A stretch of 60,902 nucleotides of DNA from contig JANXCX010000003.1 in NCBI GenBank assembly GCA_025059535.1, positions 1 through 60,902 on the forward strand, written 5' to 3'. Position numbers and translations under genes: made by a program. Each line of letters starts with the position of its first letter. Positions within the stretch are counted from its first letter, which is position 1. This DNA comes from Bacteroidia bacterium. GTDB lineage: Bacteria > Bacteroidota > Bacteroidia > SpSt-205. Positions 40,918-56,004 of this stretch are shown piece after piece. Under the pieces are notes generated by a model. It had not been told where the DNA came from, did not search any database, and saw only the letters and a program-made list of their open reading frames with translations.

Positions 40918-41583
40918 ATGTGGGACTGGGTTTTTCCCCGCTTGTGCGGCGCGTGCGGACGGCCTCTCCTAAAGGGTGAGCGCGGGGCCTGTCTATCCTG
41001 CCTGTTGGCGCTGCCGCAAACATACTTTTGGAACCACCCGCATAGAAATCCAGCTTACTATCGCTTGGCCCCTCATGTGCCGCAATTAGCGGGGGCCTTT
41101 AGCGGCTTTTGGTATGCCCCAGGCAGTCCCCTACGCGAATGGGTGCATATGGCTAAATACCAAGGCCGCCCTCACCTTTTGTATGAAGCGGCTCGTTTCC
41201 TGGCTTATTTGGCCCAGCAGGCCCTACCGCTCAGCGAATTGAAAGGTCTTTTGCCTATCCCTATACCCCCTCAGCGTTTGCGCCAAAGAGGCTATAATCA
41301 GGCTGAGTGGGTGGCGCGCGGCCTTCATGACGCATGGAAGATACCTATTCTTAGCGGATACTGGCAGCGGCGCGCTGGCGGGGTATCCCAGCTGTACAAG
41401 GTCCGTACCCAACGCTGGACCACTCTTCAGGGGGAATTTGTATGTCAGCGGCCTATCCCCTCCCCCGTAGTGGTCGTAGATGATGTGCTGACTACGGGAG
41501 CGACTTTAGCGGCGGCGATTGCTGCCCTGCCCGCTTCAGTGCGGGTGTGGGTAGTTACCGTAGGGATCACCCGTCCGCGCTGA
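40918..41583 (+). CDS. comF: ComF-family amidophosphoribosyltransferase-like protein
   Basis: 221 residues. The N-terminus has a four-cysteine zinc-finger pattern (LCGACGRPL, then ACLSCLL) and the C-terminus a phosphoribosyltransferase domain with PIPIPPQRLRQRGYNQAEWV and the PRPP loop VVVVDDVLTTGATLAAA. ComF proteins are needed for DNA uptake in competence or for related DNA transactions; here no other competence gene is near. It follows the TPR gene by 9 bases and ends the miaB operon. The last 17 bases overlap tamB tail to tail. Confidence 0.9.
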   Translation: MWDWVFPRLCGACGRPLLKGERGACLSCLLALPQTYFWNHPHRNPAYYRLAPHVPQLAGAFSGFWYAPGSPLREWVHMAKYQGRPHLLYEAARFLAYLAQQALPLSELKGLLPIPIPPQRLRQRGYNQAEWVARGLHDAWKIPILSGYWQRRAGGVSQLYKVRTQRWTTLQGEFVCQRPIPSPVVVVDDVLTTGATLAAAIAALPASVRVWVVTVGITRPR

Positions 41584-44500
41584 CGAGAGGGCGTCGTCGG
41601 CGGCGCTCGGGTAGAAAGAACCCTTTTCGTAAGCGGATACCGGCGCCTTGGCTGGTGGCTCCGACCGCCCCCCATAGGAAAGTCTGCCGGCTGAACCCCT
41701 CCACTTCCAGTTGCCAGTCTGTGGGCTGGCTAAAACGGCGCGGTAAAAGGCGATAGCGCGCCGAGAGGTTACCTAAAGTAGGATTATTGCTGCCAGGCCC
41801 TACCAGTATCCCATCCCGCTCTAGGGTAAGCCGCTGGCCCAAGTTAAGACGCAGCTGGGCCAGCAATTCGTTCCGCTGTCCTACACTAAATGATACCCCT
41901 ACTTCATTGCCCAGCGTCTGCCCTACCCAACCCGCTAATTGCGCTGAAAGAAACTCGGCCAGCGTAGAACTTACCCCCGAGCGTACCTGCCGGGAACCAA
42001 AGCCTTGCTCCATGGGTACAAAAGTGCCCAGCATCATAAGGGCAAATACCTGCCTATTGCGCTCCTGCTCGTCGTTCCTAAGCCGCTGTAGAAACAGATT
42101 GACGAGGGGCGTGGCGCTGCCGCCCAGCGAGGGAATATCAATTGCAAAGTTCATAAGAGGTGCTAATAGGGTGCCCCGCACAAAGACGCGCAGTTCCACA
42201 GGAACGGTTTGGAGAAAGGCGGTGTCAATCTGTTGAAGGTTTGTAGAGGCGCGATAAAGGGCTGTGAGGTGAAGCCGACCGCTGTAAAGATCCCCATCCC
42301 AGCTGATGGTACCCCCAGGCTCTAGTACTAATCTCTTGGAAGCCACGCCTTGGAGATTAATGCGGTACTCGCCGCCCTGGATTTCATACGAGCCAGCTAG
42401 AGTGATTTTACCTTCCCTATCTATGCCCAAGAAGAGGTCGGCCGAACCTTGCGCCGCTATCTCATCGCCCGTACGCTCGTCAAAAATGACCCTAAACTGG
42501 GTACGCGGCACCGAGGTGATATGAAGGTGAAGGTCTAGGCCAGTAGGGGCCCTAACCTGCGGGAGGCTCTCGGGCTGAGTAGGCCCTACGAATCGCACAT
42601 GCTGCGCACTACCGCCCCGCTGGTAGGTGTGTAAGGGCATGTGCAGTTCGGTGCCTTCGCCAAATCGCACATACCCTTCCAGTTGCGGGGTATGCCAGAC
42701 GCCTTTGATTCGGAGGGAGCCCTCTTCTAATTCGGCGCGTCCATACAGATAGGTGTCCGAAGAAGGCGAAATAGCTGCTAAAAGGAAGCGAGGATCTGTA
42801 ATCTGTATTTCTAAATTTAGGTAGGGCTCAAAGCCCTCTTGTAAAATAATGCTGCCATTTACATGAGCCCGGTGAAGTTGACTCTCTCGCAGTTCTAAAC
42901 TTCGGAATATTATGCTATCATTGCGTAAAAGGAGAAAGCCTTCCAGTGCATATACCATGCGGGTGAAAGGTAGGTAAAAGCTAAGATTATCGCAAAGGAT
43001 TTCGCCTCGCACATGAGGCCTTGTCGGCTTCCCTGATACGACCAAATAGCGTGATTGAAAGCTGCCGCGCAAATTGAGCATATGTTCGCTTAGAAAAGGG
43101 CTAAGCCAGCGTGCTGGTAGGTAAAACTTGCGCAGCTCTACATACATAGGTGCGGCGGTGTCCTGCCAGTTATACTGCCCGCGAAAGTTAAAGTAAGTAT
43201 TATTGGGCTCTTGGACAGCTCCCTGAAATTGCAGCGCATTTTCGGCGAGTTTCCCTGTAACGCGGATGGGTGGGTAAGCAAAGCCGGCGTAGTGCAGCGC
43301 CTCTATATCTACCCAAAAGCTAGCTTCCTCTTTGCCTTCCCATCCTAAAGAGAGACGGCCTTCTAAAGGCACCTCCTTACCTAAGCTAGTTAGGACGGGG
43401 CCGATGGGTAGCTGATAGACTTTTAGAGCAAGCCCTTCTGGGCCCTGCCTAAATCCTAGGCTACTTTCGCGGCTCTGAGCCTCTAAGAGAGAAGCTATGG
43501 GTTGGCCTTGACTAATATCAAGCTCTATCATGCTACCTTGGCGAAAGCTCCACAACTGATGTCCTAAGTAGAAATGCGAACGCAGAGTATCTAAATGAAT
43601 GTGCAAGATAGGGCTTGACCCGTGGCGCGCCCAGCTCAGGGCTAAGAAAAAGGTATCCTGCATCGCCCCTATGATGCTGTAAAGGCTTAAGAGGCCTGAT
43701 TGAGAGGTGGATTGACTTTGGAGCAAAAGCGGGCGCCACTGAAGGTAAGTAAAACCCTCTTGGGCTTCAGCATGAATGTAGAGGGAGTCCGCGTACTTTC
43801 GTAGCATTAGCCTGCTGTGGGCTATGTAAAGGTCCTGCCACTTTAGGGTATCCCAGCTTAAGGCACAATCCGCATGCGCTTCATCCAGCTCTATACAGCC
43901 TAAAGCTCCCTTCAATTCTACTTGGGCGGGCAGGCCTGCCAGCCAAAGCCAAACGGGATTATCCAGCGAAAGCTCACCCGAAAGGCGCCAGTTAGGGGCT
44001 CCTAAGGTAAGCGGGAAAATACCGTCGGTTTGCCAAATTTCCCAACGCCGCCCCCAGTTTTGGAGGCCTTCCAGCCAGTCGCCTTCGCTCTGCAAAGCTA
44101 AGCTAAGCCCTGGTCCCCGTAGGCGGTAATAGCAGCCATTCTGAAGGTAAAGCTCCACCTGGCTCAGAAAGTAGGTGTGGTTCTCGCGAATCCAGGTGAG
44201 GTTGGGAAGAATAAGGTTGGCCCACCCGTTAGTCCAGGGGAGGCCAGCGCCGCTCAGGATAAAGGTGCCTGTGCAGGTGCCGGCAGCCCCCCAGAGTTCC
44301 GCCCTTAGCCCGTCAAACCATCCGCTGCCATGATAAAAGCTACCCTCGTGAAGGGGTAGGCGCCCGCTATAGAAAAACGTACCGTAAGGCGTTTCGGCTT
44401 GCCAAGTACCCTGAGCGCTACCGGCTTCAAGAGTAAGGTGGCCGGCTATTTGGACTTGGCCCCCTCGGGGCAAGCGGCCGTGTAGTTCAGCTTGTAGGAA

Positions 44501-45910
44501 GCCTTTAAGCTGGGCTAGGTCAAAGCCTTTGGCCTCTAAATGCGCTTGCCCCCATAGCTCACTTAGGGGTAAGTTGAGCCCCCACTGGGGGGCCTCCCAA
44601 TTCCTAAAGCTTACGCTCAGGAGGTAAGTCCAGTCATCGGTTTTCTGAAGCTTGCCCGTAGCCTGAAGCTCTGGAGTGTATGCTATAAAGGTGTATTGCT
44701 GCTGGTGTAGCCACCCTGCATGTTCAGCCTGAAGCCTGAGTGGCCGATGAGTATTTATGCCTTTAGGGAGGCCGATCAGCGGCAAAGTCCGGTAGATATT
44801 CACCCAAGACACGAAGGCGTCATGCAGCCGCACCTGCCAGTGCATCTTTTCCGGGCGAGCGTAATGGACAATCTCCCCTTCAGCTATTAGGTATTCGCGC
44901 GCATCCAATTCAATGCGGAGCCGCGTGGCCTTTATGCGATAAAGGTCGCCTGTAGCCTGCAGGTCTATGGTCCATTGACTCTGAAGGGGAAGGGCCGTCC
45001 CAGCGAAAGCTGCTACATCGGCCCAGCCCAAAGTACCCCACAAATGGGCTTGAAAGAATTTAGTTTCGGTATTATGGAAAAGCTTGTCTAAGCCTTCGTG
45101 GGTAAAGAGGCCTCTGCCGTGAAGCTCACTGTGCGGTAGGCGAACATGCAGGTAGGGGATGAGAGTCTTATTGGGGAAGGCCCTCAGCACTAGGCTAATA
45201 TGGTGGATAGGTAGGCCAGCGTAGGCCTCCTTGCCAGTGAGTTTATGGATGGCGGCCCATACCTTGCCTTGGCTACTTACTTCAACGCTACCTTCTAAAA
45301 AAAGGCTATCTAGCCATAGGTCGGCGTAATTGAGGTAGCCAGCCGCATGGGTAAAGGGATAGGACGTGGAATCCACCCACCGAAAAGTGCCATTTTTCAG
45401 GGCGAGGCGTCGTAAGCTGAGCCACCACTGCTTTGGCCCTTCCGTGGAAGCGGAGGTATCCTTAGGAAAAAGGCGGTCTATATTTGTGAGGCCGCTGTGG
45501 CGCTCTTTATAGATGAATACGCTGGGGGCTTCTAGAGCTAGGCAGGATAGGGGAAAGTACTGGCGCCCATTCCAGAAGCCCTCCCAAAAGGCATAAGGCA
45601 CCCATTGCAGCCGCACGGAGCGGGCTCGCATAAAAGGTTGGCAGGCTCGGTCGTAAAGGATAAAATGCTCTATTTCCACCTCCGCTAGGCCGCGCAGGCG
45701 TAAAGCCCCTAGTTCCACCTCAGTTTGAAGAGTCTCACTAAGTACTGTAACAAGAAGCCTACGCAGGGTCGCCTGACCAGAAGGGGTAGCCAAAATAAGC
45801 TGAAGCCCGATCACCCCTACTCCCCCAAGGGCCGATAGGGTAAGAAGAAGATAGGCGAACCAGCGGCTCGTGCGTTTAGCTCGTGCCCAGAGCCGGACTC
45901 GAACCGGCAC
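41567..45910 (-). CDS. tamB: TamB/AsmA-like translocation and assembly module protein; start codon uncertain and inside tRNA-Leu
   Basis: About 1450 residues. The N-terminal membrane anchor WFAYLLLTLSALGGVGVIG is followed by AsmA-type repeats of beta strands for more than 1000 residues and a C-terminal DUF490 domain (about 1180 onward) with LMMLGTFVPMEQGFG, SAQLAGWVGQTLGNEVGVSF and LRLNLGQRLTLERDGI. TamB spans the periplasm and helps outer-membrane proteins or lipids to reach the outer membrane. The open frame runs through tRNA-Leu: no ATG, GTG or TTG exists between the tRNA 3' end (45884) and the anchor. In-frame options inside the tRNA are GTG 45910 (given here) and ATG 45961; GTG 45814 would cut the anchor in half. 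Confidence 0.82.
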   Translation of the reverse strand: MPVRVRLWARAKRTSRWFAYLLLTLSALGGVGVIGLQLILATPSGQATLRRLLVTVLSETLQTEVELGALRLRGLAEVEIEHFILYDRACQPFMRARSVRLQWVPYAFWEGFWNGRQYFPLSCLALEAPSVFIYKERHSGLTNIDRLFPKDTSASTEGPKQWWLSLRRLALKNGTFRWVDSTSYPFTHAAGYLNYADLWLDSLFLEGSVEVSSQGKVWAAIHKLTGKEAYAGLPIHHISLVLRAFPNKTLIPYLHVRLPHSELHGRGLFTHEGLDKLFHNTETKFFQAHLWGTLGWADVAAFAGTALPLQSQWTIDLQATGDLYRIKATRLRIELDAREYLIAEGEIVHYARPEKMHWQVRLHDAFVSWVNIYRTLPLIGLPKGINTHRPLRLQAEHAGWLHQQQYTFIAYTPELQATGKLQKTDDWTYLLSVSFRNWEAPQWGLNLPLSELWGQAHLEAKGFDLAQLKGFLQAELHGRLPRGGQVQIAGHLTLEAGSAQGTWQAETPYGTFFYSGRLPLHEGSFYHGSGWFDGLRAELWGAAGTCTGTFILSGAGLPWTNGWANLILPNLTWIRENHTYFLSQVELYLQNGCYYRLRGPGLSLALQSEGDWLEGLQNWGRRWEIWQTDGIFPLTLGAPNWRLSGELSLDNPVWLWLAGLPAQVELKGALGCIELDEAHADCALSWDTLKWQDLYIAHSRLMLRKYADSLYIHAEAQEGFTYLQWRPLLLQSQSTSQSGLLSLYSIIGAMQDTFFLALSWARHGSSPILHIHLDTLRSHFYLGHQLWSFRQGSMIELDISQGQPIASLLEAQSRESSLGFRQGPEGLALKVYQLPIGPVLTSLGKEVPLEGRLSLGWEGKEEASFWVDIEALHYAGFAYPPIRVTGKLAENALQFQGAVQEPNNTYFNFRGQYNWQDTAAPMYVELRKFYLPARWLSPFLSEHMLNLRGSFQSRYLVVSGKPTRPHVRGEILCDNLSFYLPFTRMVYALEGFLLLRNDSIIFRSLELRESQLHRAHVNGSIILQEGFEPYLNLEIQITDPRFLLAAISPSSDTYLYGRAELEEGSLRIKGVWHTPQLEGYVRFGEGTELHMPLHTYQRGGSAQHVRFVGPTQPESLPQVRAPTGLDLHLHITSVPRTQFRVIFDERTGDEIAAQGSADLFLGIDREGKITLAGSYEIQGGEYRINLQGVASKRLVLEPGGTISWDGDLYSGRLHLTALYRASTNLQQIDTAFLQTVPVELRVFVRGTLLAPLMNFAIDIPSLGGSATPLVNLFLQRLRNDEQERNRQVFALMMLGTFVPMEQGFGSRQVRSGVSSTLAEFLSAQLAGWVGQTLGNEVGVSFSVGQRNELLAQLRLNLGQRLTLERDGILVGPGSNNPTLGNLSARYRLLPRRFSQPTDWQLEVEGFSRQTFLWGAVGATSQGAGIRLRKGFFLPERRRRRPLVSADG

Positions 45911-45967
45911 GGAGTTGCCTCCACCAGTTTTTGAGACTGGCGCGTCTACCTGTTCCGCCATCTGGGC
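45884..45967 (-). tRNA. tRNA-Leu (anticodon CAA)
   Basis: 84 bases, class II. The acceptor stem is GCCCAGA/TCTGGGC, the anticodon stem CCAGT/ACTGG encloses loop CTCAAAA with anticodon CAA, a variable arm follows, and the T-arm has the loop GTTCGAGTC. The discriminator is A and CCA is not encoded. The promoter box ends 6 bases before the 5' end. Its 3' half is in frame with tamB. Confidence 0.95.
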
Positions 45968-45973
45968 TTTCTA

Positions 45974-45981
45974 CAAAGGTA
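45974..45981 (-). promoter_or_regulatory. -7 promoter element for tRNA-Leu / tamB
   Basis: The minus strand reads TACCTTTG, an exact TAnnTTTG match, 6 bases before the tRNA 5' end. The predicted transcription start is therefore at the tRNA and 5' maturation is nearly unnecessary. Confidence 0.65.
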
Positions 45982-45986
45982 GAAAT

Positions 45987-45994
45987 TATGTTTG
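45987..45994 (+). promoter_or_regulatory. -7 promoter element for ccmE
   Basis: TATGTTTG, an exact TAnnTTTG match, ends 9 bases before the ATG at 46004. It is 5 bases from the opposing tRNA-Leu element, a back-to-back pair. Confidence 0.6.
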
Positions 45995-46003
45995 CAAATT
46001 GAT

Positions 46004-46372
46004 ATGCGGCTTTTAGTGGGCGCAGTAGCGGTGGGCTTGCTGCTCGCTTTCCTCGTGCTGCGGCTCGGGGAGGAAGTAACGATTTATACGGACTTTCGCA
46101 CGGCTCAAACTAATCCGCATCGCACCTATCATGTCATAGCTCAATGGGTACAACGGGAGGCCAGCCGATATGATCCACAGGAGGATGCTTTTTGGTTTTG
46201 GGCCCAGGATAGCTTGGGTACAATTGTGCGCGTACGCTATCCCGACCCGAAGCCCGTCAACTTTGAAGTTGCCCAAAAAGTCGTACTTATCGGGCATTAT
46301 GCGGATAGCCTATTCTTAGCTGAAAAGATTCTTATGAAGTGTCCTTCTAAGTATAAGGCGGAGGGGCGGTGA
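46004..46372 (+). CDS. ccmE: CcmE-like cytochrome c maturation haem chaperone, CxxxY form
   Basis: A 122-residue membrane-anchored OB-fold protein. One N-terminal helix (residues 3-20, LLVGAVAVGLLLAFLVL) is followed by EVTIYTDFRTAQ, QREASRYDPQED, RVRYPDPKPVNFEVAQKVVLIG and the C-terminal motif KILMKCPSKYKAEG. The ILMKCPSKY end is that of Bacteroidota CcmE proteins, in which the covalent haem ligand is Cys113 in a CxxxY motif (Tyr117) in place of the proteobacterial HxxxY. ATG 46004 is used; a TTG at 45992 lies in the promoter. No other ccm gene is adjacent, so the rest of the system, if present, is elsewhere. Confidence 0.8.
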   Translation: MRLLVGAVAVGLLLAFLVLRLGEEVTIYTDFRTAQTNPHRTYHVIAQWVQREASRYDPQEDAFWFWAQDSLGTIVRVRYPDPKPVNFEVAQKVVLIGHYADSLFLAEKILMKCPSKYKAEGR

Positions 46373-55367: not shown

Positions 55368-55928
55368 CTAGCTCTGAGTGCGTAGCGCGCGCGGCACTTC
55401 TACCCGTGCAATTCCCGTATCCGGCGAAGCCACAATCTCTAAGCCTGGTATATTGACTTTAGCTACGGTAAGAGTTTTGCCCAGCTTGAGGCTTGAAATG
55501 TCTATCTCCAGCGCGGGCGGGAGATCTTTGACTTTGCCGCGTACGCGCAGCCGCCGCACTAAAGGCACAAGTTTGCCGCCCATCTGAACTCCCTCCGCCA
55601 GACCTACCAGCTTGACGGGGAGAGGGATAGTTACCACATCCTCCAAATCGCATGCCATAAAATCCAAATGCAGTACATAGTCGTGGACAGGATGAAGCTG
55701 ATACTCGCGTAAAATGGCCGTGTAACTTTTCCCCTCTAAATGCAGTTCAAAGAAATAAACGTGGGGGGTGAATACCACTTTGCGTGCTTCATTTTCGGGG
55801 AGGAGAAAGGGGATGTTTAGGCCTTTTCCGTAGAGGCTACAGGGCACTTGGTGCTGGCGGCGGTAACGGCGCGCTTCGGCCGTGCCTACTTTCGTCCTTA
55901 TTACCCCTTCCAGAACATACCGCTGCAT
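55368..55928 (-). CDS. rplY: 50S ribosomal protein bL25 (Ctc form)
   Basis: 186 residues: an N-terminal L25 domain that binds 5S rRNA (about 1-92; RYRRQHQVPCSLYGKGLNIP, HLDFMACDLED) plus the C-terminal TL5/Ctc beta domain (KLVGLAEGVQMGGKLVPLVR, LPPALEIDISSLKLGKT). The ATG comes 2 bases after the 3' end of tRNA-Arg, so RNase Z cleavage would leave an almost leaderless mRNA. No separate promoter for it is visible, so tRNA and ribosomal protein should share one transcript. Confidence 0.93.
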   Translation of the reverse strand: MQRYVLEGVIRTKVGTAEARRYRRQHQVPCSLYGKGLNIPFLLPENEARKVVFTPHVYFFELHLEGKSYTAILREYQLHPVHDYVLHLDFMACDLEDVVTIPLPVKLVGLAEGVQMGGKLVPLVRRLRVRGKVKDLPPALEIDISSLKLGKTLTVAKVNIPGLEIVASPDTGIARVEVPRALRTQS

Positions 55929-55930
55929 AG

Positions 55931-56004
55931 CGCACCCGGGAGGACTCGAACCCCCAACCGCCAGATCCGAAGTCTGGTGCTCTATCCAATTGAGCTACGG
56001 GTGC
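55931..56004 (-). tRNA. tRNA-Arg (anticodon TCG)
   Basis: 74 bases. Acceptor stem GCACCCG/CGGGTGC, D-arm GCTCAATTGGATAGAGC, anticodon stem CCAGA/TCTGG with loop CTTCGGA giving TCG (reads CGA and, by wobble, others), T-arm GGGGGTTCGAGTCCTCC. Discriminator G; CCA is not encoded. The rplY start codon follows 2 bases after the 3' end. Confidence 0.95.

Follow-up and report, generated by a model that had tools for sequence, protein, structure and literature searches.

In ten related hot-spring bacteria, tamB probably begins inside a tRNA-Leu(CAA) gene with which it would share a common promoter, each transcript then giving either the tRNA or TamB. If true, the start codon of a bacterial protein gene would here belong to a working tRNA, an arrangement kept through the divergence of a genus. 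The preliminary description of the window (the whole 60,902-nucleotide stretch of DNA analyzed here) had located tamB, the tRNA gene, and two possible starts, an ATG at 45961 and a GTG at 45910, and all of these coordinates were correct on recheck.

A reading frame open through tRNA-Leu(CAA)

The tRNA-Leu(CAA) gene occupies positions 45884 to 45967 on the reverse strand (ARAGORN; Rfam RF00005, 58.9 bits) and has a body of 84 nt up to the discriminator, the ARAGORN span (45883 to 45967, reverse strand) including one extra 3′ base relative to the Rfam model. CCA is not encoded, and the base 3′ of the discriminator is a C. The cloverleaf is the minimum free energy fold (−39 kcal/mol). In genomes G000 and G005, cloverleaf and CAA anticodon are present in what is the sole gene for that anticodon, no second Leu(CAA) gene being found among the leucine tRNAs of these two genomes. 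Judging by these sequence features, the gene appears to encode a working, apparently single-copy tRNA.

The tamB ORF lies on the same strand (41567 to 45961, 1,464 aa counted from the ATG at tRNA nucleotides 7 to 9) and is open through the tRNA, the complete tRNA gene thus being nested in sense at the 5′ end of a single ORF. The product carries the C-terminal TamB domain (Pfam PF04357, E = 1e-31, residues 1027 to 1445) and has homologues of similar length and 37 to 45% identity in nine relatives; in G000, TamB is single copy and full length. The sole in-frame ATG and GTG codons upstream of the TamB membrane anchor are both within the tRNA, namely, the ATG at nucleotides 7 to 9 (45959 to 45961, reverse strand; ATG7) and a GTG at nucleotides 58 to 60, in the T arm (45908 to 45910, reverse strand; GTG58). 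The first seven codons past the tRNA (45863 to 45883, reverse strand) specify the basic N-region RAKRTSR and include no ATG, GTG, or TTG. The best 19-residue hydropathy window places the hydrophobic anchor at 45794 to 45850 (reverse strand), i.e., codons 12 to 30 after the tRNA, and it is within this anchor that the first in-frame ATG, GTG, or TTG past the tRNA is encountered (GTG at 45814 to 45812, codon 24, 69 nt downstream).

A promoter −7 box of the Bacteroidota TAnnTTTG type (TACCTTTG, 45974 to 45981, reverse strand) ends 6 nt upstream of the tRNA, as had been described. Each of the 12 relatives has the box, 6 to 15 nt ahead of the tRNA (6 to 9 nt in 11 of them, 15 nt in G005), and a search for the TAnnTTTG box inside and 3′ of the tRNA found a conserved one only upstream. 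In Flavobacterium johnsoniae, the measured transcription start lies 4 to 5 nt past the box (PMC6847099); that of tRNA-Leu(CAA)/tamB is predicted at about 45969, which leaves 2 nt to the tRNA and 8 nt to ATG7. On the opposite strand, a divergent CcmE-domain gene (45968 to 46372, forward strand) has the intergenic stretch in common with the tRNA promoter and has its own box, TATGTTTG, 9 nt before its ATG.

The junction in related genomes

The junction was compared in the window, ten further species of the genus, and one species of a sister genus (G011), all represented by metagenome assemblies. In 10 of the 11 genus species, window counted (G000 to G006 and G008 to G010), the same tRNA lies upstream of tamB in the same frame, with both ATG7 and GTG58 in frame and no canonical start between the tRNA and the anchor. 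The claim that tamB has no usable canonical start outside the tRNA, made for the window, thus holds for the genus with one exception. The first ATG, GTG, or TTG after the tRNA is found at codons 12 to 41 in the ten species, deep in the anchor or, in several, beyond it (at or past the anchor end in G002 and G010); the N-terminal anchor itself is predicted by hydropathy in all ten. The genomes with the junction include the single-contig Bacteroidia bacterium KatS3mg025 and several SKW/SKYB/SKYG metagenome genomes. The tamB ORF is intact in nine of them (1,464 to 1,476 aa), and in the tenth (G001) it ends at the contig end.

The recurrence of this arrangement in 10 of 11 species despite strongly diverged sequence after the tRNA (nucleotide identity over the first 24 nt is down to 17%, with a median of 38%) points to more than chance. 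The distance from the tRNA to a conserved G[QR] is 37 or 38 codons, the one-codon length differences keeping the frame.

The codons abutting the tRNA look like the translated, positively charged N-region of the membrane anchor. Across the ten species, the seven codons that follow the tRNA specify 25 basic and no acidic residues out of 70, compared with 9.7% and 10.3% over the remainder of the protein (binomial P of about 4e-9 and 5e-4, respectively, values that assume independence of the species, which holds only in part); without the first codon, 18 of 60 residues are basic. The other two frames contain 6 and 3 stops over the post-tRNA stretch. A basic N-region directly after the tRNA means that the tamB start can be no farther downstream than the tRNA end.

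The relatives were searched for an ordinary start past the tRNA; none is present in the ten species, and the two relatives that have one are those whose tamB does not share the tRNA frame. In the sister-genus species G011, the tRNA frame contains a TAG and a TTG lies 1 nt after the tRNA; in the remaining genus species, G007, an ATG lies 19 nt past it. Both appear to behave as natural controls, in which tamB has a start of its own where the frame link is absent. G007 is the weaker control because the frame of its tamB is shifted several times, probably through indel errors in long reads, and the gene is cut short at 802 aa (locus L024).

A TamB scan of the genome collection returned no additional species with the junction, and a TamB tree computed for polarizing the trait was mostly unresolved, the minimum being two changes. 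The D-loop codon in the tRNA frame is CAG or TCG in the ten species and TAG only in G011; its use as a test between ATG7 and GTG58 was rejected, as the independent events are too few to count. In G012, from another family of the order, a thiolase-like gene comes 9 nt after tRNA-Leu(CAA) (L032:2781-2863). The window also has a thiolase gene, on the upstream side of the tRNA, and the two arrangements together hint at a local rearrangement.

Candidate start codons for tamB

In the reading that we favor, RNA polymerase would begin about 2 nt upstream of the tRNA, and a ribosome engaging the near-5′-terminal AUG (ATG7) after a leader of about 8 nt would read through the tRNA into the TamB anchor, its passage preventing the tRNA from folding. 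Where the tRNA folded first, RNase P and RNase Z would excise it and the downstream tamB RNA would be left without a start codon. As the folded tRNA is very stable, translation would have to win before folding. Both this kinetic competition and the production of TamB by such a route are our inference. The outcome of either tRNA or TamB follows from the sequence common to both together with known tRNA processing, and the logic of the earlier proposal, that a transcript can become the tRNA or a tamB mRNA but never both, is well supported by the architecture. tRNA-Leu(CAA) decodes UUG only, a codon that tRNA-Leu(UAA), also present, can usually decode as well; partial diversion of tRNA-Leu(CAA) into mRNA could hence be harmless, and this may be a reason why it tolerates the tamB overlap.

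The initiation style of the genus bears on which of the two codons in the tRNA is used. Among genus genes with a box, 34 of 54 have it 3 to 9 nt before the start, with a sharp peak at 4 nt, against 1 of 14 in the other Bacteroidota sampled (Fisher P = 2e-4). SD-like sequences are found at 6 of 50 window genes versus 10.5% at random, i.e., no enrichment. Leaderless translation looks like the default in this genus. A box peak exactly 4 nt before starts, seen in genus loci and in the window, would itself imply pervasive leaderless mRNAs in this order. For tamB, the gap between box and ATG7 is 12 to 15 nt (21 nt in G005) versus the genus peak of 4 nt, and the predicted leader before ATG7 is about 8 to 11 nt (about 17 nt in G005). 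Such a box position would make ATG7 a near-5′-terminal AUG, more in keeping with the initiation style of the genus than a GTG in a folded arm, and we regard ATG7 as the more probable start of the two. Both codons are ordinary tRNA-Leu features, and their presence is therefore no evidence of selection.

A start at GTG58, in the T arm of an uncleaved transcript, is a subvariant of the same reading that we consider unlikely. It would give a product beginning MPVRVRLWAR ahead of the anchor, with the variable arm, GGTGGAGG, as an SD-like sequence about 7 nt upstream. All ten species have GTG58 in frame, with GGAGG or GGGGG some 7 nt ahead of it, and it would provide the short basic N terminus typical for an anchor. 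However, Bacteroidia ribosomes make no use of SD sequences (PMC9976891), none are enriched in the window, and the codon would be buried in a folded arm with about 60 nt of leader ahead of it, a situation not shared by the other genes here.

Quite unlikely is translation of tamB from the RNase Z product, from a noncanonical start at or just past its 5′ end. Many tRNA neighbors in the genus start 1 to 3 nt after the discriminator, so that RNase Z cuts could yield usable leaderless mRNAs; ubiA in G000 and G006 has only noncanonical codons at its junction; and the first tamB codon, CNN, shares the tRNA frame, making the frame conservation compatible with such a start. That first codon is nevertheless inconsistent (CGA, CGG, CTG, CTA, or CAG), G002 and G004 have no ATT, ATC, ATA, CTG, or ACG before codon 14, and every other clear tRNA-adjacent gene uses ATG, GTG, or TTG. 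The ACG start suggested in the preliminary description did not stand, the codon not being conserved and two species lacking any near-cognate codon before codon 14.

A truncated TamB starting at a GTG, TTG, or ATG in or past the anchor is very unlikely: such codons are present in every species, but their positions are scattered between codons 12 and 41, those of G002 and G010 fall at the anchor end or beyond it, and the basic N-region upstream of them is conserved. Finally, a base error, pseudogene, or chimeric assembly, for which the metagenomic origin of all sequences and the several frameshifts in G007 tamB could be invoked, is scarcely credible and largely refuted by the identical junction in ten separate assemblies, KatS3mg025 included, and by the nine intact ORFs.

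That the tRNA/TamB choice is exploited as regulation of envelope biogenesis is speculation; this lineage, with its many gene starts at tRNA ends and its apparently leaderless translation, may do no more than tolerate the overlap.

Gene starts at tRNA ends and known systems

tRNAs were read locus by locus, covering all those found in G000 (43) and G005 (44) and 38 of G010. Where a same-strand ORF follows the tRNA, a start codon lies at most 11 nt from the discriminator in 17 of 26 (G000), 10 of 25 (G005), and 10 of 16 cases (G010), and in 6 of 11 in G012, from the same order; the corresponding figures in two other Bacteroidia families are 0 of 1 and 0 of 7, both small control numbers. dxr starts at a TTG 1 nt after tRNA-Val(CAC) in G000 and G005, with spacing and ORF length unchanged in G010, and further genes starting right after tRNAs are fbp, prs, ligA, tig (trigger factor), rplY (L25), and secE. 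For Dxr and FBPase, the alignments to the family models begin at the first residues, making their start calls credible. With so many housekeeping genes starting at tRNA ends, tamB would be the extreme of a continuum and not an isolated oddity. An RNase Z homologue was detected in 6/6 genomes tested, with scores below the curated NCBIfam cutoff.

In the window itself (55371 to 56004, reverse strand), tRNA-Arg(TCG) is followed by the ribosomal protein L25 gene, with its ATG 2 nt past the discriminator, as also in G005 and G010. A C follows the discriminator in 199 of 205 tRNA genes, other Bacteroidia families included, as if C74 alone were templated, CCA being generally not encoded. A ubiA homologue without a good canonical start directly follows tRNA-Gly(TCC) in G000 (L124:113-1231, C24) and G006 (L254:1419-1552, C32). 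In the former, no stop interrupts the frame across tRNA-Gly and tRNA-Tyr and the junction reads C|ATC; in the latter, a TGA inside the tRNA closes the frame, which begins with CTG at the junction. Noncanonical starts are possible for both, and unusual junction starts may thus exist in the genus.

More tentatively, and with somewhat more doubt than confidence, one may picture a thermophilic order in which translation is as a rule leaderless and tRNA genes act as 5′ leaders of housekeeping genes, with RNase Z making the 5′ ends of mRNAs (dxr, fbp, tig, rplY, and others) while, for tamB, with its start inside the tRNA, tRNA folding and TamB synthesis compete. Leaderless 5′ ends generated by promoters or by tRNA maturation would be a testable answer to how translation starts without SD sequences in some Bacteroidota. 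As annotation pipelines tend to avoid genes overlapping tRNAs, such genes elsewhere may be trimmed to wrong starts.

Transcription of a protein gene from an upstream tRNA promoter is familiar from the Escherichia coli thrU-tyrU-glyT-thrT-tufB operon, in which a spacer and an ordinary start lie in between; tamB has neither after its tRNA. Like leaderless genes in bacteria generally (PMC3160421; PMC3848588), genes here appear to start at or within a few nucleotides of the promoter-defined 5′ end and have no SD sequence. Unlike in the studied Bacteroidota, leaderless initiation is apparently the default, and in many cases the 3′ end of a tRNA would define the 5′ end; leaderless genes are otherwise rare in the phylum (1/37 Bacteroidetes/Chlorobi genomes [PMC3160421]; 5.5% of mRNAs in Flavobacterium psychrophilum [PMC9723704]; about 3.7% of 5′ UTRs shorter than 10 nt in Bacteroides thetaiotaomicron [PMC7366714]). 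In animal mitochondria (Armadillidium cox1, as cited in PMC8124441), tRNA and coding sequence likewise share nucleotides, with processing and translation as alternatives, but in an organelle genome with different processing and no bacterial start codon overlap.

The closest parallel is selC (tRNA-Sec), nested in the selB ORF of Alphaproteobacteria and described by its author as the first tRNA nested in a bacterial ORF (Mukai 2021, PMC8124441); a 5′-end case was not found in the open-access literature. In both systems, a whole tRNA gene lies in sense within a protein frame that the tRNA length preserves, the tRNA and the full protein are proposed as alternative products on the basis of bioinformatic prediction, and the overlap is conserved yet lost in some relatives, the losses for tamB (G007 and G011) being repaired by a separate start. 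The selC tRNA, however, lies at the 3′ end of its host frame, where it encodes a C-terminal extension, and its two products are functionally linked, whereas the tRNA of tamB lies at the 5′ end, would supply the start codon, and is an ordinary tRNA-Leu(CAA) with no obvious link to TamB.
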